Virus record (IMG/VR): IMGVR_UViG_3300032236_000245
Coordinates: 1 to 62,712 of that record
Length of the DNA: 62,712 nucleotides
Strand: one strand, 5' to 3'
From: a virus
The position numbers and the translations under genes were made by a program. This document shows, in pieces, positions 38,364 through 54,461 of the stretch (its first letter is position 1; each line of letters opens with the position of its first letter). The notes under the pieces are model-generated. The model saw only the letters and a program-made list of their open reading frames with translations, made no database searches and had not been told where the DNA came from.

Positions 38364-39239
38364 GTGAGTTACGATCTTATTCAGTCAATCAAGTCGAGCC
38401 TTGCCACCATCGAAGGTGGCGTGGATGCGGATACACGTGCAGTAGCCGGTAACGGTGGCAGCAAGCGCATCTCTATCAAGGGCGGTGTGTTCCGTAAGAT
38501 GGCGGGTGGCAAAGAAGTTGCCGCTATCGAAGACCGCCACATGAACGTGATCTTTGTGAAGATGGCGCACAACCCATCTCGCATGTTCTATTCCTCAGGG
38601 TGGAAGGAAGGCGAGAAGATCGCCCCGACGTGTTGGTCCACGGACAGCAAGTCGCCCGATGCAGAGGTCAAGAATCCGATTGCGTCGGCGTGTGAGAAGT
38701 GTCCGATGGCCGTCAAGGGTTCGGGTACGGATGGTCGCGGCACGGCTTGCCGTCTGTCGTGGCGTACGGCTGTGGTGTTGCCACACGATCCGTCGGGCGA
38801 TGTGATGCAGTTGGTTCTCCCCGCTGCGTCGGTGTTCGGTAAGGAAGAGGGCGGCAAGTGGCCGTTCCGTTCCTATGTGCAGATGCTAGCCAATAACAAC
38901 ATCTCGGCTGGTCGTGTCGTAACGAAGATGCAGTTCGATACGAAGTCTTCTAGCCCGAAGTTGTTTTTCTCGGCAGTCGAGGCTGTTGGTCGGGATATCG
39001 TTGAGATCATCCAAGAGCAGTCGAAGACCTCCGCTGCCGAAGCTGCTATCAAGTTGACGGTGTTTCAGCAGGATGAAGGTGACAGCGAAGGCGATGTTGA
39101 AGTCGCTCAGGCAGCGCCGCCGTACGGTGGCGAAGGCTCACCGGATTTCGTTGGTCCACCTAAGCCTGTTGTTCGGGAGAACAAGAAGCAGGAGAAGGGC
39201 GATCTTCCCGATGTTGTTGCGCGTTGGTCTAAGAAGTAA
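38364..39239 (+). CDS. Possible ssDNA-binding-type protein with FVGPPKP tail
   Basis: 291 aa from GTG 38364 (VSYDLIQSIKSSLATIEGGV), 7 nt after GGAG; TTG 38352 is in frame but overlaps that site. Core: RISIKGGVFRKMAGGKEVAA, CEKCPMAVKGSGTDGRGTAC (Cys cluster), WRTAVVLPHDP. The C-terminus is disordered: DEGDSEGDVEVAQAAPPYGG, then SPDFVGPPKPVVRENKKQEK. Core, Cys cluster and tail, between helicase and primase genes, resemble phage proteins presumed to bind ssDNA. The FVGPPKP motif is also in the giant virion protein at 42614-49468. Confidence 0.6.
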   Translation: MSYDLIQSIKSSLATIEGGVDADTRAVAGNGGSKRISIKGGVFRKMAGGKEVAAIEDRHMNVIFVKMAHNPSRMFYSSGWKEGEKIAPTCWSTDSKSPDAEVKNPIASACEKCPMAVKGSGTDGRGTACRLSWRTAVVLPHDPSGDVMQLVLPAASVFGKEEGGKWPFRSYVQMLANNNISAGRVVTKMQFDTKSSSPKLFFSAVEAVGRDIVEIIQEQSKTSAAEAAIKLTVFQQDEGDSEGDVEVAQAAPPYGGEGSPDFVGPPKPVVRENKKQEKGDLPDVVARWSKK

Positions 39240-39248
39240 GGACTGACC

Positions 39249-39560
39249 ATGCGCCCGTACGACAAGCGTCTACTTGAGGTCATTCGGACTATTGAGAACC
39301 CGACCCTTGGGCAGACGCTTGCTCGTGCGTGTTTGAGCGCGAATATCCCGGTCACTCATGTGGCTCACGCGTTAGAAGTTACACGTATGACGATTCATAC
39401 GTGGTATCGCGGCGGCGAGATACGCGGCAATAACAAGAAGATGATTAACCTGTTCATGGACTATGTGTCGCGTGATACGAGTTCAGGCAGGTTACCCGCT
39501 AAAGATCTAGAAGACGCTACCAAATACATCGAAGAACTAACGGGCGTACGTATGAAGTGA
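39249..39560 (+). CDS. Small HTH protein
   Basis: 103 aa. A helix-turn-helix is visible at residues ~26-58: TLARACLSANIPVTHVAHAL, EVTRMTIHTWYRGGEI. The C-terminus is helical (RLPAKDLEDATKYIEELTGV). It could be a transcription regulator or DNA-binding accessory of replication. It lies 9 nt after the ssDNA-binding-like gene, 46 nt before the primase, and has no close ribosome site problem. Similar HTH proteins ('LARxCLxxNIPVxxVAxALxVTRxTIHxWYxG') are seen next to phage primases. Confidence 0.75.
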   Translation: MRPYDKRLLEVIRTIENPTLGQTLARACLSANIPVTHVAHALEVTRMTIHTWYRGGEIRGNNKKMINLFMDYVSRDTSSGRLPAKDLEDATKYIEELTGVRMK

Positions 39561-39606
39561 TTGGTTCGGTTTCACGGGCAGACGAAGCCCTCATCCCCTG
39601 TACGAT

Positions 39607-42408
39607 ATGAGAAAACAATTTTATAGAAAAGCATTGTCATCACAGGGTGTGTACTGCGCGGTTGGGATCAAGGACGGACACCCTGATCAACAATACGCAG
39701 ACACACTAGATCAACTGGATACCCTGATCCAAGCCTTCATCAGTCAGGGAGCAAATGTCTATGTAGCGATGAGTTCATTCAAAGGTCACAGCCGCAAGGC
39801 TGCGGACGCAATGTACTGTCGTTCACTATTTATTGATCTTGACGTAGGCGAAGACTTACGGAAGTACCAATCCAAAGACGAAGCTAAGTTGGCGCTGAAT
39901 GACTTTCTTACGTCATCAGAACTGCCGCCGCCTATCGTAGTGGATTCAGGCACTGGTCTCCACGCGTACTGGTGCTTCAACGAAGACGTGCCGTCAAACG
40001 AGTGGCGCGTCTATGCTACAAAGTTTAAGGCTTACTGTATCTCGCAGGGATTACGGATTGATCCCGTAGTTACCGCTGACGCTGCGCGTATCCTGCGCTG
40101 CCCATACACGTTCAACTTCAAAACCACGCCGCCCTCACCGACTGTCATTGAGACACCGGATGACGAGTGGTACACCTACGATTTCGACGCATTCAAGGAG
40201 TTCCTCGGTGCTGACATTGATACGCCTGATCAGACGGCGATATTTGCCAAAGTCGAAAAAGGTCTGGACGACGATACGAAAGCACTGCTGAAGCTAAACA
40301 ATATAGAAACGTCGTTCGCATTGATCGCACGACGCAGCCTAGAAGGTAAGGGCTGCAACCAAATCAAATATGTTCTTGAACATGCCGCCGCGCTTCCTGA
40401 GCCTGTGTGGCATTCCGGATTGTCGATTGCACGAGCATGCGTGGATGGTGACGAGGCCATTCATCTTATGTCTCAAGACGATCCGCGCTATGACGCTGAC
40501 CTAACCATAAAGAAAGCAAACGAGACGGTAGGTAAACCCCATGGATGCGAAATATTTGAAACCCGAAATCCCGGTGGGTGTAACGGATGTCCTTACAAGG
40601 GAAAGATCACAAACCCATTGTATTTCGGACGGCAGTTACGAGAGGCGGACGCCGAGGAGGACTCAGTTCGGCTCATCGAGGATTCCGAAGCTATTCACGC
40701 AGTACTTAAATTCCCCGACTTCATGTACCCATATCAACGAGGTGCAGATGGAGGAGTCTACTGTGTGCAGTCCGATGACAAGGACACCGAAGGTCCGTTA
40801 CTGATCTGGCAGTACGATATCTATCCAGTCAAGCGGATGTACGGGCATACGGAAGGCGAGTGCTTACTGATGCGGCACATCATGCCGCACGACGACGTGC
40901 GTGAGTTCTTACTGCCCATGTCATCGGTGTATTCACCCGAAGAAATCAAAAAGCGGTTCTCTACACATGGGGTCTTTTTTAAGCCTAAGTTAGCGCCGTT
41001 GGTCACGGACTACATTATCAAGTGGGCAACATATATGGTCGGCAAGAAGATGGCTGAGCAGATGGCGAAGCAGATGGGTTGGACCCAAGACAACAAGGGC
41101 TTCATCATCGGTGAGACCGAGTACCGTCACGATGGCAAGCAGTCCCCGGCGGCGTTGTCTTACTTCCTACGCGACATCAAGGCACTCCTGACCACGTCAG
41201 GAACCTATGAGGAGTGGCAGCGCGGGGCCAAGATGTTGAACATGGAAGGCATGGAGATGCACGCGTTCGGCATGATGATGGGGTTCGGTTCACCCCTTAT
41301 GCGTTTCACAACCGTTGCCGGGATTACCGTCTGCTACACAGGCGAGTCCGGTGCGGCCAAGACAGGCGCACTCAGGGCGGCTTGCAGCATCATGGGCAGT
41401 CCGAATGGTTTGGAGTTGAGCGGCGACAAGGACAGCACGGCGACGGACAATGCGTTCGGTCAATGGATGCTCAGCCTCAAGAACATCATGATGGCGTTGG
41501 ATGAAGCGTCCAACCGTGATGCAAAGAACGTGTCAGACCTGATTTATAGGGTCAGCGCCGGAAAGGGCAAACTCCGCATGGTGGCGTCCGTAGATTCTAT
41601 CCGCGAGATCCCACGGCAGTCATGCCTGATCAACTTCATGACCTCTAACCAACCCATGACGGGCAAGTTGGGATCGCTGAAGGACAACCCGGACGGCGAG
41701 TTGGCACGTCTCATTGAGTTCTACATTTACAAGCCAAAGCTGTTCAACCTTCGCCCCGGCATCGCCAAGGAGATATTTGAGACGCTGCGCTTGAATTACG
41801 GATGGGCGGGGCCGTTGTATGTGCAACATCTATTCAAGGTGGGCGACAAATACATTCAGGATCTGGTCACTAAGTGGGGCATCCGATTTAGCAAGGACTA
41901 TGGCACAGACAGTGCCTATAGGTTCTATGAAGCTCTCGTCAGTGTTTGCTTCGCAGGGGCTGAACTCGCCGCTGAAGCCGGTATCGTAGCCTTTGATTTA
42001 GAACGAATTTATTCAACCGTTATAGAAACGCTAATCAAGATGCGTGACGGTGACGCGATGACCGTTAACTCGCGTGATTACGAGTCGGTCTTGGGTGAGT
42101 TTCAGAACACGTTCTACGGCAACACGGTCCTCTTCAAGGGCAAGAACATGCTGCGCGACGTGAAGGTTGGCAAGATCGTGGCACGGCTTGAGTTGGATAC
42201 TCAGATGTTCTACGTCCCTCGGGCTGAGATGCGGAAGTACTTTCAGACCCGTCAGATCGACGAGAAGGACTTCGTACGGCACATGGAAGAGCGTGGCATC
42301 CTAGCGTTCAAGGATCGCTACCGGCTGATCAGCAGCACGAACCCCGTGTCCATGTACGGGTTCAAGCGCGAGGTGAGCGAGGACGATTACCTGAGCGAGG
42401 GCGATTGA
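39607..42408 (+). CDS. Prim-pol (AEP) primase fused to a helicase domain
   Basis: 933 aa. N-terminal AEP primase: F-I-D77-L-D79 in SLFIDLDVGEDL, H119 in DSGTGLHAYWCFN, and DAARILRCPYTFNFK. A Cys-containing stretch, GCEIFETRNPGGCNGCPYKG (near 315), suggests a zinc site. The C-terminal helicase has a Walker A variant G579-E-S-G-A-A-K-T and Walker B ALD632-E633, with DUF927-like upstream sequence (EEWQRGAKMLNMEGMEMHAF). It would prime and unwind at the origin. No good ribosome site precedes the ATG, so its start or control may be unusual. Confidence 0.87.
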   Translation: MRKQFYRKALSSQGVYCAVGIKDGHPDQQYADTLDQLDTLIQAFISQGANVYVAMSSFKGHSRKAADAMYCRSLFIDLDVGEDLRKYQSKDEAKLALNDFLTSSELPPPIVVDSGTGLHAYWCFNEDVPSNEWRVYATKFKAYCISQGLRIDPVVTADAARILRCPYTFNFKTTPPSPTVIETPDDEWYTYDFDAFKEFLGADIDTPDQTAIFAKVEKGLDDDTKALLKLNNIETSFALIARRSLEGKGCNQIKYVLEHAAALPEPVWHSGLSIARACVDGDEAIHLMSQDDPRYDADLTIKKANETVGKPHGCEIFETRNPGGCNGCPYKGKITNPLYFGRQLREADAEEDSVRLIEDSEAIHAVLKFPDFMYPYQRGADGGVYCVQSDDKDTEGPLLIWQYDIYPVKRMYGHTEGECLLMRHIMPHDDVREFLLPMSSVYSPEEIKKRFSTHGVFFKPKLAPLVTDYIIKWATYMVGKKMAEQMAKQMGWTQDNKGFIIGETEYRHDGKQSPAALSYFLRDIKALLTTSGTYEEWQRGAKMLNMEGMEMHAFGMMMGFGSPLMRFTTVAGITVCYTGESGAAKTGALRAACSIMGSPNGLELSGDKDSTATDNAFGQWMLSLKNIMMALDEASNRDAKNVSDLIYRVSAGKGKLRMVASVDSIREIPRQSCLINFMTSNQPMTGKLGSLKDNPDGELARLIEFYIYKPKLFNLRPGIAKEIFETLRLNYGWAGPLYVQHLFKVGDKYIQDLVTKWGIRFSKDYGTDSAYRFYEALVSVCFAGAELAAEAGIVAFDLERIYSTVIETLIKMRDGDAMTVNSRDYESVLGEFQNTFYGNTVLFKGKNMLRDVKVGKIVARLELDTQMFYVPRAEMRKYFQTRQIDEKDFVRHMEERGILAFKDRYRLISSTNPVSMYGFKREVSEDDYLSEGD

Positions 42409-42617
42409 TGGAGATTGACCCGAAACTAGGGGAGCCGGTATGGGCGCTCCCCTTTGACCAACTGCGCGTCGGGATGAGTTTTTTCATTCCGACCAACAAG
42501 CCCAATGCCATGAAGCGCATTGTGGAAGATCGCGCCGCCGAAATCGGTTGCCGTATTAAGGCAACCGTGACCACCAAAGAAAGTTACCTCGGCGTACGCG
42601 TTTGGCGGGTGGCTTAG
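42408..42617 (+). CDS. Small protein at the end of the early block
   Basis: 69 aa: MEIDPKLGEPVWALPFDQLR, VGMSFFIPTNKPNAMKRIVE, DRAAEIGCRIKATVTTKESY, LGVRVWRVA. Compact alpha/beta with a FIPTxKPxAxKRxVxxxAxxxGxxIKxxVTxxxxxxGVRVWRV pattern seen in small early phage proteins. ATG overlaps the primase stop. Its TAG overlaps the stop of the convergent giant gene by 3 nt. Confidence 0.75.
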   Translation: MEIDPKLGEPVWALPFDQLRVGMSFFIPTNKPNAMKRIVEDRAAEIGCRIKATVTTKESYLGVRVWRVA

Positions 42618-45600
42618 CCTCCCCTATGGAATTTCTCTACAAGGCGGTCCTTCAACTTAGGCGGTAGCGTCACGCCATCTACTGCGTCTTCGGCTTTCTT
42701 CTGCCGGTTCATATAAGACTGCATGATGTTCTTAGGCATGATAGCGACTTCAGGATTCGCTTCGTTGAAGGCGTCGATTTCTTTTTGCACTTCCTCGCGC
42801 ATGTCATCGTTGCCAAGAACCTGCGCTCCGTACATCTGATCCATCAGCATCGACTTACGCTGCATAATCTTCTTAGCTTCTGCCGTCATCAACGACGCCC
42901 CCGCCCGTGCTTCAGTCACGTCGAGCGGAGCAAATCCCAACCCCTGCATCATTACGTTCCAAGCGTTCACGTTGTCTACAACCTTAGCGCCGTTTTTGTT
43001 TACTACCCCTTCCGTAGCGTATCTATATGCCTTGAGCGCATTACGCATGCCTGATGGCGTCATCGCCTCAAAGCCCTTCTCGTATTCACCCTGTGCAAAA
43101 AGTTGCATGGCGCGACCGGCTTGAACCATCGCTGAATACGCGGGACCCATCATATGCTCCATGGTGTAGAGCATCGGGCCGATTTCAGCTTCACGCTTCG
43201 GATCTTCCTTCCAAAGCATGTCACCCCATCCCGTACGACTGGAAATTTCTAAATTCGTCAGGTATCCCAAAGGCCCTTTATATGCCATGAGACCAATAGC
43301 GTTCTTCAGTTCTTCTTCGGCGTCGTAGGTCTCATCCTTGGTGCTAAACAACTGCGACGCCAACATTTCTCCCGCCCCAACTAATGGCATACCAGCAACG
43401 CCTGAGAACAGGAACGCCGTGCCGTACAACCCCAACAACTGTTTACGTGCAATCGCGCGAGTCTGAGCATTCTCGTCACGGAACGCTTCGTTAAACAGTC
43501 TCCCCATGATAAAGAATCGGTTCATCGCAAAGCGTTTGAACGTGAGAGCCACACGCGCAAATCCATTCTGCATATAGCGCGGCCCCGATTCTGCGAGGTT
43601 CGTACCATATGCACGGGTCACCATATCCATTGCCTTGCGCGAGGCTTCTTCGTGGTTGTCCCTACCCCCGGCAAGTTCATACGCCGCGATTAGCGTTGAC
43701 TCGCGGTTCAGGCGGTCGGCGCTTTCAAACATGAAATTCAGGCCGCGATTAACTTTAGCGAACGTGTTGTTGTAGTTCTCTAAAGAAGTATTCCTGAACT
43801 GCGACAACTCAGTACCGATGTGCCGCCCCATGACCCCGGCTTCGTTTGCGGCTTTGAACAGATCTTCGTACTCAGCCGGTATTTTACCCTTAACGCTAAA
43901 TTTGCCCATGGCTGCGGTCATTGCAGCGGACGTTTTATCGAACCCGTACTCGCCCCCCAATAGCGGATACACAACCATTGGCATGTGGGTAAAGTTAACG
44001 AACGCAGATGATGCGTTACCCGCCAGATACCACATGTAACTACCATACCCAAGCGTATTGACCAACTTGTTAAAGGTTGGCTTACGCATGAACGCAACCT
44101 GAGCCTCTACGTTACGGGCAGCAGAAGTGATGTTGTCGTCTGACTTGTGCAATTCAACTTGCTTACGCATGTTGTTCACTTCGTCTTCGACTTGTTGCGC
44201 GTACTTCAAATTCGTGAGGTTACGCGCCATCGCTGGTGCGAGGTTTGCAAAGGTCTGCAAAGTATCCCTGATCATACCGTGCCGGTTTTCACGTGAACGG
44301 TAACGCTGCATAGTCGCTGCGTTAGGCATGTAATTCAGGAAAGTCTCGTACACGTTGTCGAGCGTTTCTTCTGATACACCCTGCCGCGCCATCGCTTCCA
44401 AAACTTCACCCATCAATCCCGCCGGGACGCCTGTATTGTTACGTAGGTCACGGAGACGACGATAGGCTTCGGCATCGGAGCTAACAAGCTTCGCTTTACG
44501 CAAAGCCCGTTCTTGATCCATCTTCGTCTCATACGCTTGAGACACTCGGTTACCGTCCCTATCGGTATAGGTCACCCAGTAGTCGCCACGTCGAAAGAAC
44601 GGCATGTACACGCCAATACGACTGCTCGCAAACTTCGCCTTCATCTTTTGGGCAGCATCAGGCGACACCATCGACAAACAATACTGTTCAAATTCTTTAG
44701 ATTGGTTGTCGTAATACTCACGCATGCCGCGATAGATTTCAGCGAGCTGTGGATATCTTGCAGTGATCGCCCTGTATTGCGCGTACAACGGACTGCTGGT
44801 ATCGACGTCTTTACCGGAAGCCATTCCGTCTTCAAGTTCTACTTGATACAACGAACTGCGAATGGCGATGTCATGAAACTCGTTCATCACATCAGACGAA
44901 ATACCCTTTACGTCTGCCCACCACTTGAGCATCGTATCTTTAATGGCTTCCTGTCGCATGTTGCGTTCAGCACCGCGACGCCCCATCAACCTATCAAGTG
45001 CCTTAAACGCCGGAACCTTGTCGCCATAAAGTTGAGCCAGATGATCCAATGAAGAGAACCCGTGCGCCATGTCACGTACGACACCGGGGACTTCACTCAA
45101 CGCGGCCTTGATCCGATTGAACAACCCTGTTGTCGGCTCGGTGTAGTCATCTAACGGCTTACCAACATCATGAAGTTCTTCGGCGTCGGCTTCAGAATAG
45201 CGAACGTCTTTAGGAGGCGTGAAACGTTTTTCGACGCTCAGATTAAATTCTTCATTGTCCCCGTACTCTACGTTGAGTTTATGTACGGGCAAACCATGTT
45301 TGTCGTACTGCGATAGCACGTCGTTAGAAGATACGCGCCCCTCGTTTTTCCGAGATTCAATACGATCTAATTTACCGAATAGGCTATTTATTTCACCCCG
45401 TACGTCAGAAAGTTGACCACCTAAATCGCCCCACTTTTCAACAAACCCACGACGCCCTTTAACTTCTCTTGAGTAAACTAACTTATCAACGTCGGTTTCG
45501 CTAAGACCCAGTTTATTGAGGATAGCATTTCGACGTTTTTCTAACTCAGAGTACTTATCTCCCAAGTCAGCGTACTCTTCTTCTTTTGTTTTGGCATGTT

Positions 45601-48600
45601 CATAAGGTGCAGTGTCTTTAAGAATAGCAATCGGTTTAGGGTTACCCTCACCAACAAGCTCATCGCTTTGATAGCCTTTCTTACTAAGCGAACTACCCGC
45701 ACGCTCAAATACAAGAACTGTACCGCCTTCTCCGGAGAATGCTTGCCCTCTCGTACCGCTAACGTTAGTTCCTTTACGCAACCCGTTTTTAACGATATCT
45801 GCAATATCAGAATCGTTACGGACAGCGTGATAAAAATACTTGGAGTCGTCTAAGAGGCTACCTTTAGCCTCCGTACCAAGCTCCCCCAAGCCATGCTCAC
45901 CCTCCCCTTCTTTAGCTAATCCACGAGCAGCCGCCATAGCCATCTCACGGAGATCATGCTCATTGAGTTTGAAGTTAGTACCTAACCATTGGTTAGCGAA
46001 CTTACGAACAGCCATCAAGATACGCTGCACGAGTGCAGGGGCTTTCGTGTGTTCCACAAGGTAGGCAAGGGCTTCTGACTTAATGCGTTCTGCGCGGTTG
46101 GGAGTACCCTCAGGGATCTTACTTTGTGCGCGTTCCCACGCTTGCATGAATGCCGGAGACTTCTTGTTTAGCTGAGCCTCAAAGTCCGCTAGGATTTTCT
46201 GATACTCATGCGGAGGTAGCATATCTTCAAGTCCGATATGCGCTCCAACCTCATGAAGTAGAACACCCATTATGTGTTCTTCGCCTACGTTACCGGCAAC
46301 GATAAACGCTTTTGCGTCTTTACCACGTCCGAATACCGCGCCACGCTTGTTAGGATCGTGCGGCTTACCATCTGCACGAGGCGGCAACTCATCAACGTTA
46401 TCGACAATCGTTAACTTGCCGGACTTCAGCAATCCACCAAGACCGCTTTTCTTAATCGCGGCTTCAGCAGCCTCAACTGAAGACGAACCAAGTTTGCCGA
46501 CCGCCTCACGATCTTCTTCGCTTTCGTTAGCATTCTTTTTTAGTTCGGCCTTACGCTTCTCAACTTCAGCCGCTGCTTCTTCAGCCGCGTTTTTAGGTGC
46601 TGCTTTTTCGACTTTAGATGGTGGATACCGTTTACGAAATGCCGCTTCTAACTTAGCCCGAGTAAGGACGTGGGGTATATTTTCTTCAATTTGAGCCTCA
46701 GTAGCCCCGTAATTCATATTCGCAAGGGCTTTACGAAGCCGATTCAGAAGAATGCGATCTTCACTCTTATCGCCAGACAATCCATCAGGATTCGTCCTAG
46801 AATTCTCTTCGATCTCGCCTAATAGCTTATCGCGTTCTTGACGACCCTCTTCGCGAATCTTCTCCCCTGCTTTGTCGGCTGTCTTAGTGATGTACCGATC
46901 TTCATATGCTTTAGTCACGTCATGGTGAGCGTTTACAAGTTCCTGATAAAGTTCAGGATCCAACTCACTGATGCGGTCAGGCAGTAACTCAAACGCTTTT
47001 TTAACTTTAACGTACAGCGCAGAATCATTCTGGTGCGTGCCAGACATGCCGTCTTCGCTACCCTCCTTCTTATTGTTTAGCAGGACATCGCGAGCATTAC
47101 GAAGAACATTTACTGAAGGGTCTTCTTCTAATATCTGTCGGCGGGCGTCTTTTGCACGTTGTGTGGCTTCTTTTTCTGCTTTTTTTATAGCCGCGTCGCG
47201 ATTGCGTTCACGCCGCATCTTATCTTCTAGTTCAATAGCCGCTTGGTCTTCGCCGGTATGTACAACTTGCTCACCGGTAGGCGTGTACGAGTACACCTTC
47301 TTGATACGCGGCGTTAGTGTAAGCGTGCTTTTGCCTTCTCCTCCAGCAGACTCTGTAGCATTAGGTTCAGCACTCCCCACTCCAGTAGGCTGAGTCGCTT
47401 CAATGCCACTAGGCGCGGCGGCTCGTTCTTGTACAGGCACTCCAGCGCCTTCTCCAACTGCCGTCTGGTCAACTTCTCCAGTCGGTTTTCCTTCGGTAGG
47501 AGCATTAGGTGGGACCTCAGTAGGTTTAGCCGCAGCCCGTTCAGCAATTTTTCGTTGCACGAAATCAGACGCGGGTTTAGGTGCTTTAGGCGTCTTGGCC
47601 TCAGCCGCTTTAGCTTCAGGCGCACTAGTCAGTTTAGTAGTCAGTCTTCGACGATTAGCCGAATCCGGTTTGGTAACTAACCCTTCGCGTTCCATCTTAT
47701 CGAGCAGCATGACTGCTACATGCGTCTCAACGCCCGTAGCGTCTCTAATGGTTTTAACCGTAGCCGAACCGGATTCTCGCACTGCTTGAATGGCGCGCAG
47801 ATAGACCGGGGGCTGCTCAGGTCCGGGGGATTCAGGTGGCTTCGGTGGGCCAACCGTTTCCATGTTCCTTTTGTATCCAGCCAAATCCTGATCAGACAAC
47901 TGCGTCTGAGATACTTCACCTTCAGGAGTGCCATACATGACATCTGGGCGAACCGTCTCAGTTTTTTGAGACGGGCGCGGCTTTGGTGGGCCAACAAACT
48001 CAGGAGGTTTTGGCGGACTTGCCATCTCCATAGTATTTCTGAAAGCCGCTAAGTCTTCAGGCGACAAAGGCGTTTGAGATATATCGCCTTCAGGAGTGCC
48101 ATACATGACATCTGGACGCAAAGTCGGCGTCTTCTGAGAAGGGCGCGGCTTTGGTGGACCGACAAACTCAGGTGGCGCAGGGGGCTTAGGAGGACCCATT
48201 TGCGAAGCGGCTTGTGCTTGTTGATCTTCAGCCGCTTTACGTCCCGCATAATCAGACGACGATTCAGGCGATGTGAACACATCCCCTTGCGCGGTACCGT
48301 ACATAACGTCCGGGGTTTGAGGGCGCATTCCACGAGGCTTCAATGGACCCATGAAGCCCTTGCCGTGTATTCTTTCCCACTCAGCCTGATCGTTTAGATC
48401 GTAATCACGATGCGGCATCTGGGGACCGACAAACTCAGGTGGCTTTGGTGGCCCCATGAAGTTGTAGTCATCCGGTTTCGGTGGACCCATGAAGTCGTAG
48501 TCCTTCGGCTTCGGAGGACCCATCGACTTGATTTCGTTACGCTTACGAATTGCTTCCGCACGATCCGACATACCACCGATGACACCCATGGGCGACATCA

Positions 48601-49468
48601 ATGCTGCCGTGTACATGGCTTGGCCGTACTCAGCAGCGGCGTCATCATCAGTCAATGACTTACCCGTTTGAGCGCGTTGCAACGCCGCTTGTGCAACTTG
48701 AATCGGCACCTGCTCCATCAGGTTGACCTTCACGCCACGCATTGCAGCCCTGAGATAATTTTTCGCAATCTCATCTGCTGCTGTGTTCTGCCCCATCCGT
48801 AATAATTTGGCTACTTCAGGCCCGAACATAGATGTGACGGCTCTACCGCCCAACGGCAAAATTTGCGCTGCTACGTCTAACGGAGCTTGTACCGCAGCGG
48901 TCCCCGCTGCCCTACCGACATCAATATCAATCGGCTTGCCTTCGGCTTCTTGCGTCGCCGCCTGAGCCGTAACGTTGCTTGCCAAACGAGGTGCATATGC
49001 ACCGGCCAAAGCACCGAGGCCGCGTCCCGCCATTTGTGCGCCGCGTAACGCCGCGCCACCAGCACCGCCGGTCAACGCCATCGTACCCATGAGCGGCAAG
49101 TTCTCAGCAATCGCGCCGACGCTCTGCCGACCTAGTTCAGACAAACCAGATCCAATGCCCGTATCAAATGCTTCGCCTAGACGATGGATATCTGTAGACG
49201 GGGCGTATTCCTCATCAAGCGCACGTTGACGCTCAAGTGAACGCTTACCCGCCTCGTTAGCGCCATATCGACCCATCTCATAGAGGGTTCGCACATCTCC
49301 GGTAAGACTCTTAAGCCCACGGGTAAACGACGCGCCTACGCCTGATTTAGGCGTACCCCGAAACATGTCAGGGTTAGCTTTACTGATTCTCCGAATCGCC
49401 TCTTCCATAGAGACGTTATCCGGCACCATCGTGTAAGACCCATTAGGTAGGTCGAGTCTGTACGGCAT
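42614..49468 (-). CDS. Giant polyvalent-type virion protein (2284 aa) with zincin and ART-like parts
   Basis: Largest gene of the genome, start ATG 49468 after AAGGACGA. Parts: small N-terminal module (MPYRLDLPNGSYTMVPDNVS, IRRISKANPDMFRG); Ala/Gly-rich helical region to ~300; Pro-rich repeats with (M/E)GPPKP, ~310-555; winged-helix-like segment ~560-620 (AIQAVRESGSATVKTIRDAT, LLDKMEREGLVTK); charged coiled region; zincin motif H1072-E-V-G-A-H1077; ART-like FYHAV...DIADIVKNGL with H1214; long helical C-terminal half with a hydrophobic part near 2020 and NLEISSRTGWGDMLW, as in PLxRFG-type polyvalent proteins. Such proteins are packaged and injected to act on host targets. Domain calls beyond the zincin motif are by pattern. 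Confidence 0.75.
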   Translation of the reverse strand: MPYRLDLPNGSYTMVPDNVSMEEAIRRISKANPDMFRGTPKSGVGASFTRGLKSLTGDVRTLYEMGRYGANEAGKRSLERQRALDEEYAPSTDIHRLGEAFDTGIGSGLSELGRQSVGAIAENLPLMGTMALTGGAGGAALRGAQMAGRGLGALAGAYAPRLASNVTAQAATQEAEGKPIDIDVGRAAGTAAVQAPLDVAAQILPLGGRAVTSMFGPEVAKLLRMGQNTAADEIAKNYLRAAMRGVKVNLMEQVPIQVAQAALQRAQTGKSLTDDDAAAEYGQAMYTAALMSPMGVIGGMSDRAEAIRKRNEIKSMGPPKPKDYDFMGPPKPDDYNFMGPPKPPEFVGPQMPHRDYDLNDQAEWERIHGKGFMGPLKPRGMRPQTPDVMYGTAQGDVFTSPESSSDYAGRKAAEDQQAQAASQMGPPKPPAPPEFVGPPKPRPSQKTPTLRPDVMYGTPEGDISQTPLSPEDLAAFRNTMEMASPPKPPEFVGPPKPRPSQKTETVRPDVMYGTPEGEVSQTQLSDQDLAGYKRNMETVGPPKPPESPGPEQPPVYLRAIQAVRESGSATVKTIRDATGVETHVAVMLLDKMEREGLVTKPDSANRRRLTTKLTSAPEAKAAEAKTPKAPKPASDFVQRKIAERAAAKPTEVPPNAPTEGKPTGEVDQTAVGEGAGVPVQERAAAPSGIEATQPTGVGSAEPNATESAGGEGKSTLTLTPRIKKVYSYTPTGEQVVHTGEDQAAIELEDKMRRERNRDAAIKKAEKEATQRAKDARRQILEEDPSVNVLRNARDVLLNNKKEGSEDGMSGTHQNDSALYVKVKKAFELLPDRISELDPELYQELVNAHHDVTKAYEDRYITKTADKAGEKIREEGRQERDKLLGEIEENSRTNPDGLSGDKSEDRILLNRLRKALANMNYGATEAQIEENIPHVLTRAKLEAAFRKRYPPSKVEKAAPKNAAEEAAAEVEKRKAELKKNANESEEDREAVGKLGSSSVEAAEAAIKKSGLGGLLKSGKLTIVDNVDELPPRADGKPHDPNKRGAVFGRGKDAKAFIVAGNVGEEHIMGVLLHEVGAHIGLEDMLPPHEYQKILADFEAQLNKKSPAFMQAWERAQSKIPEGTPNRAERIKSEALAYLVEHTKAPALVQRILMAVRKFANQWLGTNFKLNEHDLREMAMAAARGLAKEGEGEHGLGELGTEAKGSLLDDSKYFYHAVRNDSDIADIVKNGLRKGTNVSGTRGQAFSGEGGTVLVFERAGSSLSKKGYQSDELVGEGNPKPIAILKDTAPYEHAKTKEEEYADLGDKYSELEKRRNAILNKLGLSETDVDKLVYSREVKGRRGFVEKWGDLGGQLSDVRGEINSLFGKLDRIESRKNEGRVSSNDVLSQYDKHGLPVHKLNVEYGDNEEFNLSVEKRFTPPKDVRYSEADAEELHDVGKPLDDYTEPTTGLFNRIKAALSEVPGVVRDMAHGFSSLDHLAQLYGDKVPAFKALDRLMGRRGAERNMRQEAIKDTMLKWWADVKGISSDVMNEFHDIAIRSSLYQVELEDGMASGKDVDTSSPLYAQYRAITARYPQLAEIYRGMREYYDNQSKEFEQYCLSMVSPDAAQKMKAKFASSRIGVYMPFFRRGDYWVTYTDRDGNRVSQAYETKMDQERALRKAKLVSSDAEAYRRLRDLRNNTGVPAGLMGEVLEAMARQGVSEETLDNVYETFLNYMPNAATMQRYRSRENRHGMIRDTLQTFANLAPAMARNLTNLKYAQQVEDEVNNMRKQVELHKSDDNITSAARNVEAQVAFMRKPTFNKLVNTLGYGSYMWYLAGNASSAFVNFTHMPMVVYPLLGGEYGFDKTSAAMTAAMGKFSVKGKIPAEYEDLFKAANEAGVMGRHIGTELSQFRNTSLENYNNTFAKVNRGLNFMFESADRLNRESTLIAAYELAGGRDNHEEASRKAMDMVTRAYGTNLAESGPRYMQNGFARVALTFKRFAMNRFFIMGRLFNEAFRDENAQTRAIARKQLLGLYGTAFLFSGVAGMPLVGAGEMLASQLFSTKDETYDAEEELKNAIGLMAYKGPLGYLTNLEISSRTGWGDMLWKEDPKREAEIGPMLYTMEHMMGPAYSAMVQAGRAMQLFAQGEYEKGFEAMTPSGMRNALKAYRYATEGVVNKNGAKVVDNVNAWNVMMQGLGFAPLDVTEARAGASLMTAEAKKIMQRKSMLMDQMYGAQVLGNDDMREEVQKEIDAFNEANPEVAIMPKNIMQSYMNRQKKAEDAVDGVTLPPKLKDRLVEKFHRGG
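47919..48115 (-). repeat. 56-codon tandem repeat in the giant gene
   Basis: A 29-nt block is identical at 47919-47947 and 48087-48115, 168 nt (56 codons) apart. The protein units read PEFVGPPKPRPSQKT, RPDVMYGTPEG-D/E, then about 30 less conserved residues, with a third partial unit near 48280-48330. Recent in-frame duplication of a Pro-rich linker is the likely origin. Confidence 0.8.
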
Positions 49469-49477
49469 GATTCGTCC

Positions 49478-51160
49478 TTAACGAGTAGGGCCTTGGGTAA
49501 GCTGATCAAACGATACCGGAGTACCCGGACTACCTGCGCCTAGTATCCTATTTTGCTCACGTTGCATGATTGCCCATGCAGCTTGCTTCTCAGGTCCTGT
49601 AGCCGTTTTACTATCATAAATTCGTTCGGCTTGGATATACGCAGGGGACTTATCTACTTCAGTCAGTCGTTTAGTACCCGCGCCGATCTGTGCGCTCAAT
49701 ACCTGAGGCGTCAGACCCTGAAGGTTACCGAGCAATCCTGCTAGTCCTTCATACCCTTCTTTATCATGCGCCGCATATGCCCTAATCATCGCACCCTGAA
49801 CACGATTGATTTGCGCGTCCTTACCCATTACCGCACGAAGATAAGCTGTGCTGTCTTTATGTGTCATGTAGTCACGAGCAAGTCCAACGCCAAGCGTTGT
49901 TAGATCCTTCATTGCAGCATTACGTTCACGGACTTGACTGCCGTGTTCAATTTCAGCCGTACGAAGATCCGCTTTGTCCTCAGACAACAACGCACGGATA
50001 CCGTCCATCTTGGACTTATCAATGTTCTCTTGTGCGTTAAAAATATTATTTTGTATTGCGGCGGCTCGCTGTGCGTAGTCACCGCCACTTAGCCCAAGAC
50101 CACCGAACACACCACCTGCTGCACGAGTGCCTTTAGACATGATGTCAAACCCAAGCTGAGCTAAATTCATGCGCTTGCTGAATTTTTCCATTTGCTCAAG
50201 CGTACCGGACTTTTTATCTTGCTTATCTATCCAGTCATAAGCCATCTTCTGTAACTTGGGATTCGCGCCTTGCAACCGTAAGAAAATATCTTTGGTATCT
50301 TCAACAGGCGTAGCGGGAAACCTAGAGACAATTTCTTTCCATGCCTTGTTATTAGCAAGATCAAAATCGTCAATGTTAGGGCTACCACCATTTCGCCCTC
50401 CACCTTGTAAGTCGGCTAAATCACCTGAACCAAAGTACTTAGTGTAGTCAACTGGTGGAGGCTGCGGAGGCTGTGCAGGACCCGTCGGACCCGCAGGAGG
50501 TGTCGCAGTGGTAGGAGTTGGTTTGATTTGTGGTAAATTGTACTGAGTCAAAATTGAATTCGCACTGGCTTGCTGCGCCGCGGCGGCTTTTGCTGCGGCG
50601 GCTTTTTCTCTCAGTGCTAGCAACTGATTGTATCTAGGAGAAGCAGAAGCCCACGCATCGCGCACATTCTGTGGAACACGTGGCGTAAGCATACCTCCCG
50701 GCACATCACCGAAAGGTTGAGGCAGTGGGTTAGCAAGTTTAGCCAACTTCTCGTACTGCGCGAGTTCGGTGTCCATATCAGGTGTCCAAGCAGTATCGCT
50801 CTTTACCTGACTTCCGTCCGGACCAGCGAACGCCACGATGCCACCTTCAGCATATGCGCTCTCAGAGCCTATGTTATGCACAGGTAAAGCACCAACGCCT
50901 TGGTTGATTTCACCTGAAACGGCTTTATTAAGTTGTGAGCGAATAGAATTTTCGTCAACTGGCTTGATGGGCTGCGATTCCTTAAACCGCTTATATTCCA
51001 TCGCCAACTGAGCAAAAGGGACCATACCGTGCGATTCTGATTGCAAGGCCATATGCGCTTGTTCAGCGTTGCCTTTATGTTCTTGCAATAACTGATCGAA
51101 CCGTCTGGCGGCGGCGGCAGCATCAATGAGATGCGGATCGGTTGATGTAATACCTTGCAT
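49478..51160 (-). CDS. Internal virion protein-like
   Basis: 560 aa. N-terminal helices (DPHLIDAAAAARRFDQLLQE, HKGNAEQAHMALQSESHGMV), a segment ESAYAEGGIVAFAGPDGSQV (EGGIVAF motif common in injected or tape-measure-like virion proteins), a Pro-rich centre (ATPPAGPTGPAQPPQPPPVD), then long helices (KFSKRMNLAQLGFDIMSKGT, FNAQENIDKSKMDGIRALLS). Large helical proteins in this position of podovirus genomes are ejected with the DNA. It lies 10 nt from the giant gene start. Role inferred. Confidence 0.7.
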   Translation of the reverse strand: MQGITSTDPHLIDAAAAARRFDQLLQEHKGNAEQAHMALQSESHGMVPFAQLAMEYKRFKESQPIKPVDENSIRSQLNKAVSGEINQGVGALPVHNIGSESAYAEGGIVAFAGPDGSQVKSDTAWTPDMDTELAQYEKLAKLANPLPQPFGDVPGGMLTPRVPQNVRDAWASASPRYNQLLALREKAAAAKAAAAQQASANSILTQYNLPQIKPTPTTATPPAGPTGPAQPPQPPPVDYTKYFGSGDLADLQGGGRNGGSPNIDDFDLANNKAWKEIVSRFPATPVEDTKDIFLRLQGANPKLQKMAYDWIDKQDKKSGTLEQMEKFSKRMNLAQLGFDIMSKGTRAAGGVFGGLGLSGGDYAQRAAAIQNNIFNAQENIDKSKMDGIRALLSEDKADLRTAEIEHGSQVRERNAAMKDLTTLGVGLARDYMTHKDSTAYLRAVMGKDAQINRVQGAMIRAYAAHDKEGYEGLAGLLGNLQGLTPQVLSAQIGAGTKRLTEVDKSPAYIQAERIYDSKTATGPEKQAAWAIMQREQNRILGAGSPGTPVSFDQLTQGPTR

Positions 51161-51163
51161 AAC

Positions 51164-52012
51164 TTATCCAAATACTCCGAAGAGGCTACCAAGGCCAAGG
51201 CCCATACCCGCAACTTGTGCAGCGGCTGTTGGCGGCGATTGATACAACGAAGCCTGACTTTGTGTCGTTGGCGTACCACGGATCAAACTGGACATGAACC
51301 CGAGTTGTGAGTACGGGTAGTTTTGTTGATTCAGGAAGTTTTGGTATCCAGTGTTCAATGCAGTTTGTTGCTGTTGCTGTTGCAACGCACCGGCCCCAAG
51401 AAGCGCGGTATTAATACCGGCTACCTGTTGGAACTGCTGTTGACCCAAGTTGCCAAGTGCATTAGCACCGGTAAAAAGATTTTGGTTCTGTTGATTGAAC
51501 TGCTGTCGTGCGTTGTCGTATGCGCTCTGAAGCCCCGTTGCCTCAATACCCGTCAGACTGTTCTGAAGGTTTCGGTTGGCTTCCGACTGCATAAGCGCCG
51601 AACGTGTACCGCCAAGACCGCCGACCGCCGCCGCCTGAGAACCCAATCCCGGTAGGCTGCGACCGTAGTCACGGATGGCAGATTGCTTCTGCTGCTCTAT
51701 GACGTTATTCACGTAAGGCGACATGTAGTCCTGAACGTTCTGTCCAGTGAACTGATTTGTCGCACCCATCCCGGCCATACCCGCTGCCTGATTGGTCAGT
51801 GCAGAAGGCTGAAGACCTTGGATGTTTTGAAACGCCTGATTCTGTAACGGGCTGAAGTCAGCCTGTTGCTGTCCCGTATATCCCTGATACGGAGTATTGG
51901 TGAGGGCCGTTGCCTTGCCTAATACCTGAGTGGCATACGGCATTAACTCCGGTGGAATGGAGTTATTGTAGTTAGTGCTTGTAGTAGGTCCGCCGCCGCC
52001 ACCGCCACTCAT
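51164..52012 (-). CDS. Gln-rich virion protein
   Basis: 282 aa. MSGGGGGGPTTSTNYNNSIP, PELMPYATQVLGKATALTNT, then a Gln/Asn/Ala-rich helical body (NPLNQ-type repeats, ARQQFNQQNQNLFTGANALG, ALQQQQQQTALNTGYQNFLN). The G-run start followed by PxxxxxYxxPxxxxxLxxA and the Q-rich body match small internal virion proteins of podoviruses with unknown detail. Starts inside the 147-aa gene stop by 4 nt. Confidence 0.7.
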   Translation of the reverse strand: MSGGGGGGPTTSTNYNNSIPPELMPYATQVLGKATALTNTPYQGYTGQQQADFSPLQNQAFQNIQGLQPSALTNQAAGMAGMGATNQFTGQNVQDYMSPYVNNVIEQQKQSAIRDYGRSLPGLGSQAAAVGGLGGTRSALMQSEANRNLQNSLTGIEATGLQSAYDNARQQFNQQNQNLFTGANALGNLGQQQFQQVAGINTALLGAGALQQQQQQTALNTGYQNFLNQQNYPYSQLGFMSSLIRGTPTTQSQASLYQSPPTAAAQVAGMGLGLGSLFGVFG

Positions 52013-52452
52013 GAATGCACCTCATTGAAATACTTTTCGTATACAACAGTCTGTACTGTGTATCCACGTTTTTTGACGTGCGATCCCCAACCGGGGCGAC
52101 CAAAGAACTCAATCCCGGCACAATCAGCCGAGCGAGCGAATTGTTCTAATGCGATATACATTTTATCCTCCACATGCTTCATGTGGTTAGGTTCACCCGC
52201 ACAGTACTGCGCTACGAGCATCTTGCACTGTGGATAATCTTTGACTTCGGTGATGACATAGCCGTACCCGCGAAGGGACTCCGCATCGTACACCAACCAC
52301 AACTGCATCCGTCCAGTAAACAAAAAATCTAGGATGTCTTCAGCAGTCGCTCGACCACGAGTCCACATCTCGGACTTAAGTAAATACCCGTACATCCCGT
52401 TAAGCGCATCGGACAGCATGCTCGGCGGAATGTATGAGATTTCTAAGTTCAT
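52009..52452 (-). CDS. GNAT-like / gp13-type virion region protein
   Basis: 147 aa. Helix-rich start (PPSMLSDALNGMYGYLLKSE), then GRATAEDILDFLFTGRMQLW, LVYDAESLRGYGYVITEVKD, and CAGIEFFGRPGWGSHVKKRG YTV. The W-x-x-D... G-Y-x-I-T... G-R-x-G-W layout is that of small acetyltransferase-fold proteins encoded beside podovirus internal proteins (T7 gp13-like). The usual acetyl-CoA loop (R/Q-x2-G-x-G/A) is not clear, so it may be structural. ATGA overlaps on both sides. Confidence 0.65.
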   Translation of the reverse strand: MNLEISYIPPSMLSDALNGMYGYLLKSEMWTRGRATAEDILDFLFTGRMQLWLVYDAESLRGYGYVITEVKDYPQCKMLVAQYCAGEPNHMKHVEDKMYIALEQFARSADCAGIEFFGRPGWGSHVKKRGYTVQTVVYEKYFNEVHS

Positions 52453-54461
52453 GCTGGCATGAACTTGTCAGGGTTGATCTGCTTACCCTGCTTAGGGTTA
52501 CCCGTCCGCGCCCGACGAACCTTGTCCATCATGGCATACAGACGCTTAGCCCCGGCGTTAGTGGAACCGTTTCCAAGGTGCGAGACCACATCTGCCGGGA
52601 CCACAAATTCGCCGTCGGCTAGAGCAGCACGTTGAGGCTTATGTCCCGTAATGACCGCAGGGATTGAATCTGACATGCCGTCGCCGTGACCATGCAGCAA
52701 CTTGCCACCCGCCGCGTAGTTCGGAGTCAGGTCAGCCAGACCGCCTTGGGCCATATGAATACCCGCCGCCCATCCACGCTCGCCACCGCCCGTCTGCGTG
52801 TACTGCCCAGTCTGAGGATCGTAGGAGTACGAAGGGTAGGTGGTCGTCGTATGGGTATCTGGGTTGGTATAGGGGGACATGCCGCCCATGCCGCCAAAAT
52901 TACGGATGGCATTCAGCCATGCTGATCCATCCGCCGGGATGCCTTTTGCAGGAATAGGATTGTTGGGCGTCGCGGGAGTTACGTCTGCCACGGTAAGCTG
53001 AGAATACGGCTGTGGCGTTACCATCTGCGTTGCACGAGCCAAGTAAGCATTCATGGCGTCGGGAGGCGGTGTCGTGATTGTCGGCGTCATCGCGTTTTGA
53101 GATGACGCATTACCCAGCATGTTTTTGTAATAGTCATTCATATTAGAAAGCGTGTTACTCATGCTCGGCGCAGGGGTTGTAACACCACCCTGATCGAAGT
53201 GTCGAAGCCCCATCAAGCCGCCCTTTTTAGCGCCGATTGTTTGAGAGGGTTCTTGCGGCATACCGGGGAACGTATGCGTAAACACACCGGGGTTCCATTG
53301 CTGCCCGATAAATGCCGACTGCCCTGCCGGGAGGTAACCCAGTTTGGCAATGTTCGGATTGACCACGCCGGGGTTGTAAAGACTGCCCTGTCCCGGCGCG
53401 GCAGTGTAATACCACGGTTGCTGTTGATCCGACTTCAGGGTTTCTTGCGGGTTCATCAAGAATGGAGCAGCAGAGGCTGCGGCAATACCCTTAGCACCGA
53501 AAGCCGTTTTGCCAAGATTTGCCATAACCGCATTACGCCCCTGCTCTGTACCAAGACCCCTAATACCCTGTGCGAGCAGCTGAGAGTTAGATACGGGTGC
53601 GGCCAACGTACCATCAGCACCGGCCAGCATTTGTCCGGTAACGCGTCCGGCAGAATTTATCTCAGGGAGGTACAACTGAGGCGACGCGGTATTAAATACC
53701 GGAGTTGGTGGCGCAGCCGCTGCTTGCGCCATAGCCGCTTTAGCTTCTGGACCAGCCCATGCAGCGCCGTTAACACCTTCTTCGGCACCGGTAACCGCAC
53801 CGGAAGGCGGCATAATATCAACTGGACCAAATCCCGGTATTTGTGCAATGCCTTCTACGCCTTCCGCCGCACCGGGAGCAGCTTGCGCGGCGTCAGCAAC
53901 CGATGACAACGGGGTTTGCGCTAGTTCAGCAGTATCCTGACCCAACGCTCCGGCAATGCCACTTGTATCTGCGCCAGTAGCGGCAGCGGCCTCACCAAGA
54001 TTAGTTGCCCCGCTTTCTGCTGCGGTCTTTAGCCCTTCAGCCGCTGCCTGAGTTCCCGCCTGAGTAGCACCACCTATCAAAGACCCCGCCAGACCTGCGC
54101 CGCCGTAGCCACCCAACGCGCCAAGGCCAAGACGCGCCCACAAAGGCATTTTCTTATCGCCGGTAAAAGCGCCGGTAACCGCGCCAGCTAGAAGCGGTGC
54201 AGCCATGCCGCCTGTAAATAACGTGGCAACGCCACCGGCCAACATGGGTAGAAGACTGCTAAGCCATCCGGCTTCATAAAGTCCCGTATGAGGGTTACGG
54301 GTTAATTGACCGCCCGTCGCCATGGCAATTTTATTCAATGCCCCGACTTCGCTAGGGGACATGTGGACGAGCATGGAATCGCCGCCACGACCGAGTGAGG
54401 CAAGCCCCTGAGCCATCTTGTGTGGGTGGTGCGCTAGGGGGCGCATTTGGCCTGTGATCAT
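52449..54461 (-). CDS. Large internal virion / ejection-type protein
   Basis: 670 aa. Residues ~55-110 are a Gly/Ala/Leu-rich hydrophobic stretch (LPMLAGGVATLFTGGMAAPL, LAGAVTGAF) that could span the membrane on ejection. The middle is Ala/Pro-rich. The C-terminus has HGHGDGMSDSIPAVITGHKP, LADGEFVVPADVVSHLGNGS and AGAKRLYAMMDKVRRARTGN, a conserved ending of phage tail/ejection proteins. The start uses ATGAGG-N6-ATG. Likely forms part of the channel through the envelope. Confidence 0.75.
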   Translation of the reverse strand: MITGQMRPLAHHPHKMAQGLASLGRGGDSMLVHMSPSEVGALNKIAMATGGQLTRNPHTGLYEAGWLSSLLPMLAGGVATLFTGGMAAPLLAGAVTGAFTGDKKMPLWARLGLGALGGYGGAGLAGSLIGGATQAGTQAAAEGLKTAAESGATNLGEAAAATGADTSGIAGALGQDTAELAQTPLSSVADAAQAAPGAAEGVEGIAQIPGFGPVDIMPPSGAVTGAEEGVNGAAWAGPEAKAAMAQAAAAPPTPVFNTASPQLYLPEINSAGRVTGQMLAGADGTLAAPVSNSQLLAQGIRGLGTEQGRNAVMANLGKTAFGAKGIAAASAAPFLMNPQETLKSDQQQPWYYTAAPGQGSLYNPGVVNPNIAKLGYLPAGQSAFIGQQWNPGVFTHTFPGMPQEPSQTIGAKKGGLMGLRHFDQGGVTTPAPSMSNTLSNMNDYYKNMLGNASSQNAMTPTITTPPPDAMNAYLARATQMVTPQPYSQLTVADVTPATPNNPIPAKGIPADGSAWLNAIRNFGGMGGMSPYTNPDTHTTTTYPSYSYDPQTGQYTQTGGGERGWAAGIHMAQGGLADLTPNYAAGGKLLHGHGDGMSDSIPAVITGHKPQRAALADGEFVVPADVVSHLGNGSTNAGAKRLYAMMDKVRRARTGNPKQGKQINPDKFMPA

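Follow-up and report, generated by a model that had tools for sequence, protein, structure and literature searches.

Polyvalent proteins of phages join several unrelated domains in one chain and are encoded close to late or virion genes. FtsK winged helix-turn-helix (wHTH) domains are among the domains listed for them, an HEXXXH variant has been described for one set of their metallopeptidases (MPTases), and it was proposed that the MPTase cuts the polyvalent protein into its working parts (Iyer et al. 2017, PMC5512222). The PLxRFG/DarB-like giants within this group (PMC5512222; NCBIfam NF032893; phrog_10089) have in common with the protein described below a PLxRFG C-terminus, an HEXXXH zincin, mixed domains and a late-gene context. 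DdrB of phage P1 is known to undergo processing (PMC5512222), head targeting of P1 DarB lies in its first 30 residues (PMC9024508), and CsCl-purified virions of the Lessievirus JC1 contained the giant protein gp69, identified by 51 unique peptides (PMC9144972). Here, we describe a gene of this type in a window of 62,712 nucleotides, i.e., the whole of IMG/VR record IMGVR_UViG_3300032236_000245 (positions 1 to 62,712), a linear-class viral contig that may not be a whole genome. The gene (42614..49468, minus strand, ATG start) specifies a protein of 2284 amino acids (aa) and takes up 10.9% of the record. A first-pass annotation, made from the letters alone, had delimited the open reading frame (ORF) exactly, at about 11% of the genome, without stating the strand, and had read its product as a polyvalent-type virion protein with zincin, ADP-ribosyltransferase (ART)-like and winged-helix-like segments.

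We consider it moderately probable that the giant protein is an injected, modular polyvalent protein, in which a conserved frame carries exchangeable cassettes and the zincin serves self-processing.

Family membership and the zincin domain

Profile searches place the giant protein in the known polyvalent/PLxRFG family of phages. Its residues 1619-2273 (42650..44614; this and all other segments of the protein are encoded on the minus strand) match NF032893 (PLxRFG domain-containing protein) with 382.9 bits against a cut-off of 100 (E 3e-114), and PFFRRGDY, at residues 1623-1630, is its version of the PLxRFG motif. The PHROGs matching the same part are a DarB-like antirestriction family and three unnamed families. 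The domain lies in the C-terminal half, which is helical and hydrophobic as the first-pass annotation described it, and its signature is common to the polyvalent-type proteins of Serratia phage Parlo, Klebsiella phage LASTA and Erwinia phage PEp14. Four unrelated domains (wHTH, zincin, ART-like and PLxRFG) are united in the chain, and the neighbouring genes are of ejection and virion types. The order zincin, ART, PLxRFG is also that of Shewanella phage Y11. Compared with the DarB-like giants, the window protein is shorter (2284 aa against 3-5 thousand aa), its ART-like domain is not ART-PolyVal, and no methylase-helicase dyad is detected by Pfam. Directly ahead of the PLxRFG domain, a helical segment (residues 1441-1618; 44615..45148) has homology to the closest syntenic relative, L009 (E 2e-10), and occupies the place that LPD39 holds in kin proteins (e.g., at 772-915 in L127). 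Searches for relatives using the zincin plus ART-like region and the C-terminal region as single-protein queries yielded none; queries made with alignments succeeded.

The zincin-like metallopeptidase domain spans residues 1014-1187 (45908..46429). It can be aligned both with the zincin domains of seven polyvalent proteins taken from phage and plasmid records and with a larger group of 43 sequences drawn from contigs of viruses and genomes. The HEVGAH motif is found at residues 1072-1077 (46238..46255), where the first-pass annotation had placed it: H1072, E1073, G1075 and H1077 are invariant in the larger set of 44 sequences, while E1132 (in EALAYL; 46073..46075), the candidate third zinc ligand, is invariant in both the set of eight and the set of 44. 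Both the motif and the downstream conserved glutamate are thus aligned with those of the HEXXXH set. The similarity to the syntenic homologue reaches E 2e-39, and in the AlphaFold2 model, the predicted local distance difference test (pLDDT) is about 91-95 through most of the core. Searched against a viral library, a 441-residue model matched an internal virion protein D with probability 1.00 and a large-polyvalent-domain protein with probability 0.99, both over ~190 columns. In Foldseek and VIA searches of the same model against the PDB, coiled coils matching the next domain's helical hairpin dominated, and these searches therefore have no bearing on the zincin fold. Judged by its alignments, the zincin that holds HEVGAH is a genuine one and belongs to the HEXXXH clade.

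Conserved frame and exchangeable cassettes in kin phages

Kin phages were located through the neighbouring gene, a DUF927 helicase/primase-type gene (39607..42408, plus strand; Pfam DUF927 E 6.7e-23) that is convergent with the giant gene. At about 50 of the 75 loci so obtained, the same place is taken by a long ORF (1.2-2.5 thousand codons) on the minus strand, some of these ORFs being ended by the contig edge. We aligned the window protein with 22 kin proteins. In this alignment, conservation is at least 90% in the columns of H1072, E1073 and H1077, and 21 of the 23 proteins have an HEXXH/HEXXXH-type motif in the zincin slot (HEVGAH, HELVH, HESLGH, HEMVH, HELGH or HEIGVH). Other domains vary from one kin giant to the next: LPD39 occurs in 11, LPD38 in eight, FtsK_gamma in five, ART-PolyVal in two and a transglycosylase in one.

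Two relatives illustrate the variation at the same locus. The closest syntenic relative, L009 (the contig of L127; IMGVR_UViG_3300020733_000026), is collinear with window positions 38619-53411 and combines the N-terminal segment, the zincin (43%) and the PLxRFG domain (33%) in one gene, but its product, of about 1,660-1,690 aa, has neither the ART-like domain nor the winged helix. In L194 (IMGVR_UViG_3300031758_000176), the zincin is likewise followed by an ART cassette and then by the C-terminal block; here, the zincin is of the HELGH type and the cassette is a canonical ART-PolyVal (E 5.5e-18) that takes the slot filled by the ART-like domain in the window protein. ART-PolyVal stands ahead of the zincin in L152, and behind it in L015, which is outside the kin group. 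In another locus outside that group (L014:9989-13285), we noticed by eye a GNAT-like segment directly behind an HEVGAH zincin, an apparent cassette in the same slot. The comparison is best read as a conserved frame, made up of the N-terminal segment, the zincin slot and the C-terminal PLxRFG block, with the segments in between behaving as exchangeable cassettes.

The N-terminal, Gly/Ala-rich part of that frame (residues 1-306; 48551..49468) is common to the kin giant proteins: it has phmmer matches among them and is 36% identical to L009 (E 3e-45). It may be the end that serves packaging and ejection. The Pro-rich repeats mentioned in the first-pass annotation are indeed present, in a repetitive linker at residues 310-545 (47834..48541) where proline makes up 15-19% of the residues and where MGPPKP occurs four times, FVGPPKPR twice and RPDVMYGT twice; its DNA includes a single short tandem array of 2.5 copies with a 33-base period. 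The linker is followed by a winged helix-turn-helix of FtsK-gamma/MarR type (residues 554-608; 47645..47809). By itself, this segment scores under the Pfam cut-offs, with 24.9 bits against 27 for MarR_2 (PF12802; E 2.4e-5) and 12.6 bits against 30.6 for FtsK_gamma (PF09397). Homologues at the corresponding positions of kin proteins bear out the winged-helix assignment (L183 and L143, E 4e-10; L136, E 1e-7), and two of the kin homologues, L129 and L136, exceed the FtsK_gamma cut-off (53.1 and 38.4 bits across these kin). Since kin homologues match FtsK_gamma and FtsK wHTH domains are known in polyvalent proteins, the winged helix likely binds double-stranded DNA.

The first-pass annotation had further suggested that the succession of zincin and ART-like segment couples protein cleavage to ADP-ribosylation at entry. 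The distribution in kin phages speaks otherwise: the zincin slot is occupied in 21 of the 23 proteins with or without an ART-like domain, and L009 has the zincin without that domain. As the zincin is kept regardless of the ART-like domain, a general processing role fits better than a dedicated protease-ART pair, and tying the protease specifically to ADP-ribosylation is probably wrong. Taken as a whole, the earlier interpretation is partly supported.

A short motif, [ILMV]x[FY]S[RK] (DIRFSR, EILFSR, etc.), recurs at domain junctions. It occurs 99 times in 130 non-redundant giant proteins, as compared to a mean of 30 and a maximum of 47 in shuffles, and per residue, it is 3.9 times commoner in the giant proteins than in ordinary ORFs from these loci; L009, L024, L033 and L050 are examples of loci where it is enriched. 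Among 69 proteins that have an HEXXXH zincin, the motif is found 12 times at -200 to -60 (3.3 expected) and 28 times at +90 to +420 (7.7 expected), the downstream excess being in part the tail of ART-PolyVal; it is rare within the zincin and depleted far upstream. The window protein carries a weak cousin of DIRFSR outside the counted pattern, KDVRYSEA (residues 1420-1427; 45188..45211), behind the ART-like domain, and L009 reads PTISYSKA at the corresponding junction. Because ART-PolyVal tails contribute to the counts, the protein set still includes related members, and the motif was picked after the sequences had been seen, we put forward the recurrent motif, and KDVRYSEA in the window protein, as candidate processing sites, by way of hypothesis.

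An uncatalogued ART-like domain

The ART-like domain occupies residues 1205-1418 (45215..45856), with FYHAV at 1212-1216 and IVKNGL at 1225-1230; H1214 (45827..45829), at the position given in the first-pass annotation, lies in the predicted first beta strand. A scan of viral contigs with this segment alone found three homologues with 48-64% identity, and an alignment-based scan added two. All five are located inside giant ORFs of 1,800-3,640 codons that encode polyvalent-type phage proteins: a simple pattern scan detected an HEXXH/HEXXXH-type motif in four of these ORFs, while the fifth, in L204, has similarity to the PLxRFG region of the giant protein. The domain precedes the zincin motif in L203, L205 and L209 and follows the zincin in the window protein; it is therefore mobile. 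All five homologues keep H1214, which is thus invariant, and further invariant polar residues include R1217, D1219, D1221, N1235, S1237, Q1242, E1247, K1264, Y1266, Q1267, D1269, K1284 and D1285. In the L204 ORF (2149-11550; 3134 codons), ParB_N-like and YkuD-like segments, both under the Pfam cut-off, lie around the ART-like domain. A protein of Dolichospermum phage Dfl-JY45 (L005:1591-8754) carries an HEVVGH zincin together with several ART-type repeats that read YHGT.

Profile searches with the segment gave no Pfam, PHROG or ART-PolyVal match. ART-PolyVal (PF18760) was rejected as its family on account of the missing profile hit; a local profile and hhalign were also negative. With tblastn, we found nothing for the segment in phages (to E 10), nor for the homologue L204 in phages and plasmids, and neither single-protein nor alignment queries detected the domain in 369 genomes of one bacterial class, a search run without a positive control. 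We have thus seen the domain in viral contigs only.

The AlphaFold2 model of the domain, built from six sequences (pLDDT 75; predicted template modelling score, pTM, 0.61) has the topology beta-alpha-beta-beta-beta-beta, a long helical hairpin and beta-beta, where the hairpin inserted between the strands corresponds to residues 1295-1372 (45353..45586), with its helices at model residues 99-124 and 128-176. Foldseek against the PDB ranked the yeast tRNA 2'-phosphotransferase Tpt1 (7yw4) second (E 0.15). With VIA, 7yw4 gave Z 6.8 and a root-mean-square deviation of 3.6 over 94 aligned residues spanning model positions 11-202, and among the VIA matches shown, all the others cover the helical hairpin alone. 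In a directed test, the ART-like core was compared by hhalign with 26 KptA sequences from genomes. The resulting register places YHAV on YHGT and I..NGL on I...GL, such that H1214 aligns with the histidine of the KptA HGT, and the score of 21.2 was equalled by one of 150 column shuffles (mean 11.7, standard deviation 2.2). Run in the same way against KptA, the recognised ART-PolyVal family does not reach a higher score.

The segment that the first-pass annotation called ART-like is hence a real, conserved domain with an invariant histidine and up to 64% identity to its homologues; its ART nature is plausible, with Tpt1 as the nearest solved fold, and it is not an ART-PolyVal. On the model and the alignments together, we regard an ART fold as likely, and weak but concordant indications place it nearer to Tpt1/KptA than to ART-PolyVal. 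The predicted beta core superposes on that of the Tpt1/KptA RNA 2'-phosphotransferases (ART superfamily) and the YH..I..GL register is common to both, but in the ART-like domain, the N-terminal lobe was not detected, a long helical hairpin is inserted, and there is no significant single-sequence similarity.

Delivery, processing and alternative readings

The giant gene is the terminal member of a minus-strand late block, running from 49468 to 42614. It is preceded by genes for a conserved protein of 670 aa (52449..54461, minus strand; present in 25 of the 75 kin loci), a small protein of 147 aa (52009-52452), a DNA-ejection-type protein (51164..52012, minus strand; phrog_4287, E 2.4e-21; present in 40 of the 75) and, immediately upstream, a 560-aa protein (49478..51160, minus strand). 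The small protein matches phrog_7642 (unknown function), and its gene overlaps the adjoining late genes; it has a relative in one kin locus only (L129, 54%) and appears GNAT-like by eye only. A late and ejection-gene context of the giant gene is thereby supported, both by the phrog_4287 neighbour and by the syntenic kin. The terminase and portal genes are elsewhere in the record, apart from this block, and PADLOC returned nothing but a spurious Cas7d (E 0.011).

Lessievirus BcepIL02 gp70 and JC1 gp69 are DarB-like giants with a zincin of the same clade (gp70: E 9e-17), encoded in a similar gene position after a protein of roughly 510-530 aa; they differ in their length of 4.5-4.7 thousand aa. 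When the position of the 560-aa protein was compared with the gene order of BcepIL02 and JC1, JC1 gp68, which was detected in virions, was its counterpart by position alone, and a sequence comparison with BcepIL02 gp69 gave no match. By analogy with JC1, the giant protein would ride in the virion and be ejected along with the DNA. In the most likely mechanism, cleavage of the chain by the zincin at domain junctions, either while the particle is assembled or once the protein has entered the cell, would free the winged helix and the ART-like enzyme, of which the latter would use NAD+ to modify a host or nucleic-acid target. The constancy of the zincin slot and the C-terminal block, next to variable cassettes, fits the self-cutting proposal of Iyer et al.

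Several observations weigh against this scheme or parts of it. Packaging of the giant protein is argued from JC1 gp69 by analogy, and the PLxRFG profile has no match in BcepIL02 gp70, so that the link to the virion runs through the zincin and gene order only. The virion RNA polymerase of N4 has an MPTase and is yet packaged unprocessed (PMC5512222). The zincin motif is absent from two of the 23 giants (L143 and L160), which retain the rest of the frame. As for the ART-like domain, a Z of 6.8 with Tpt1 is in the middling range and not decisive alone, the hhalign probability against KptA was just 6%, the six-sequence core profile found nothing among PDB sequences, and a four-sequence profile gave mostly coiled coils, with an RNA 2'-phosphotransferase (8tfz) at E 1.4.

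It is nearly certain that the motifs are not chance strings of a giant ORF of low complexity: HEXXH-like strings do arise by chance, but the alignments exclude this origin, since homology extends over full domains and residues are invariant in each of the families tested; by that comparison, neither the zincin nor the ART-like segment nor the winged helix is a chance motif. A less remote alternative, suggested by the first-pass annotation, which we nonetheless hold to be improbable, is that the zincin acts after entry as an effector protease on defence or regulatory proteins of the host and not on its own chain. Zincins are effectors in other conflict systems (PMC5512222), and the several unrelated zincin types in the kin slot are what arms-race replacement of effectors would give. 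This alternative sits poorly with the retention of the slot in 21 of the 23 proteins while the adjoining cassettes vary, with the junction motif that flanks the HEXXXH zincin in many giants, and with the known processing of P1 DdrB.

It is somewhat easier to imagine, though still doubtful, that residues 1205-1418 are not an ART and form a conserved domain of alpha/beta type, including a helical hairpin, that has a binding or structural role. The modest structural match to Tpt1 would agree with that, as would the lack of any ART-PolyVal profile, Pfam, PHROG or PDB sequence match. The many invariant polar residues, from H1214 to D1285, look enzyme-like, however, the catalytic strand is in register with that of KptA, and the domain sits in the slot that holds ART-PolyVal in L194. 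Comparably doubtful, in our view, is a giant protein that is chiefly an internal core or ejection-conduit protein, like T7 gp16, with incidental extra domains. Its gene follows that of a DNA-ejection-type protein (phrog_4287), the zincin part matches internal virion protein D with a Foldseek probability of 1.00, and the N- and C-terminal parts are the best conserved; yet, a purely structural role leaves the repeated exchange of enzyme-like cassettes in the same slot unexplained. A conduit role is compatible with the modular, self-processing protein that we prefer, in which the frame would be the conduit. Going further, the ART-like domain could represent a new, phage-only branch of Tpt1/KptA-type ARTs, which is injected, has host proteins or the ends of nucleic acids as its targets and is freed by the zincin at junctions of the [ILMV]x[FY]S[RK] type, such as flank the zincin in many polyvalent proteins; we offer this combination as a speculation and hold it to be improbable.

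At this locus, a phage protein that is apparently injected shows cassette exchange in a clean form, with different middle domains in the same place and the same frame. New here is a conserved domain, so far uncatalogued, whose putative catalytic histidine can be put to the test. With the zincin slot nearly universal and flanked by the junction motif, the old guess that such proteins cleave themselves to yield separate effectors becomes open to direct testing.

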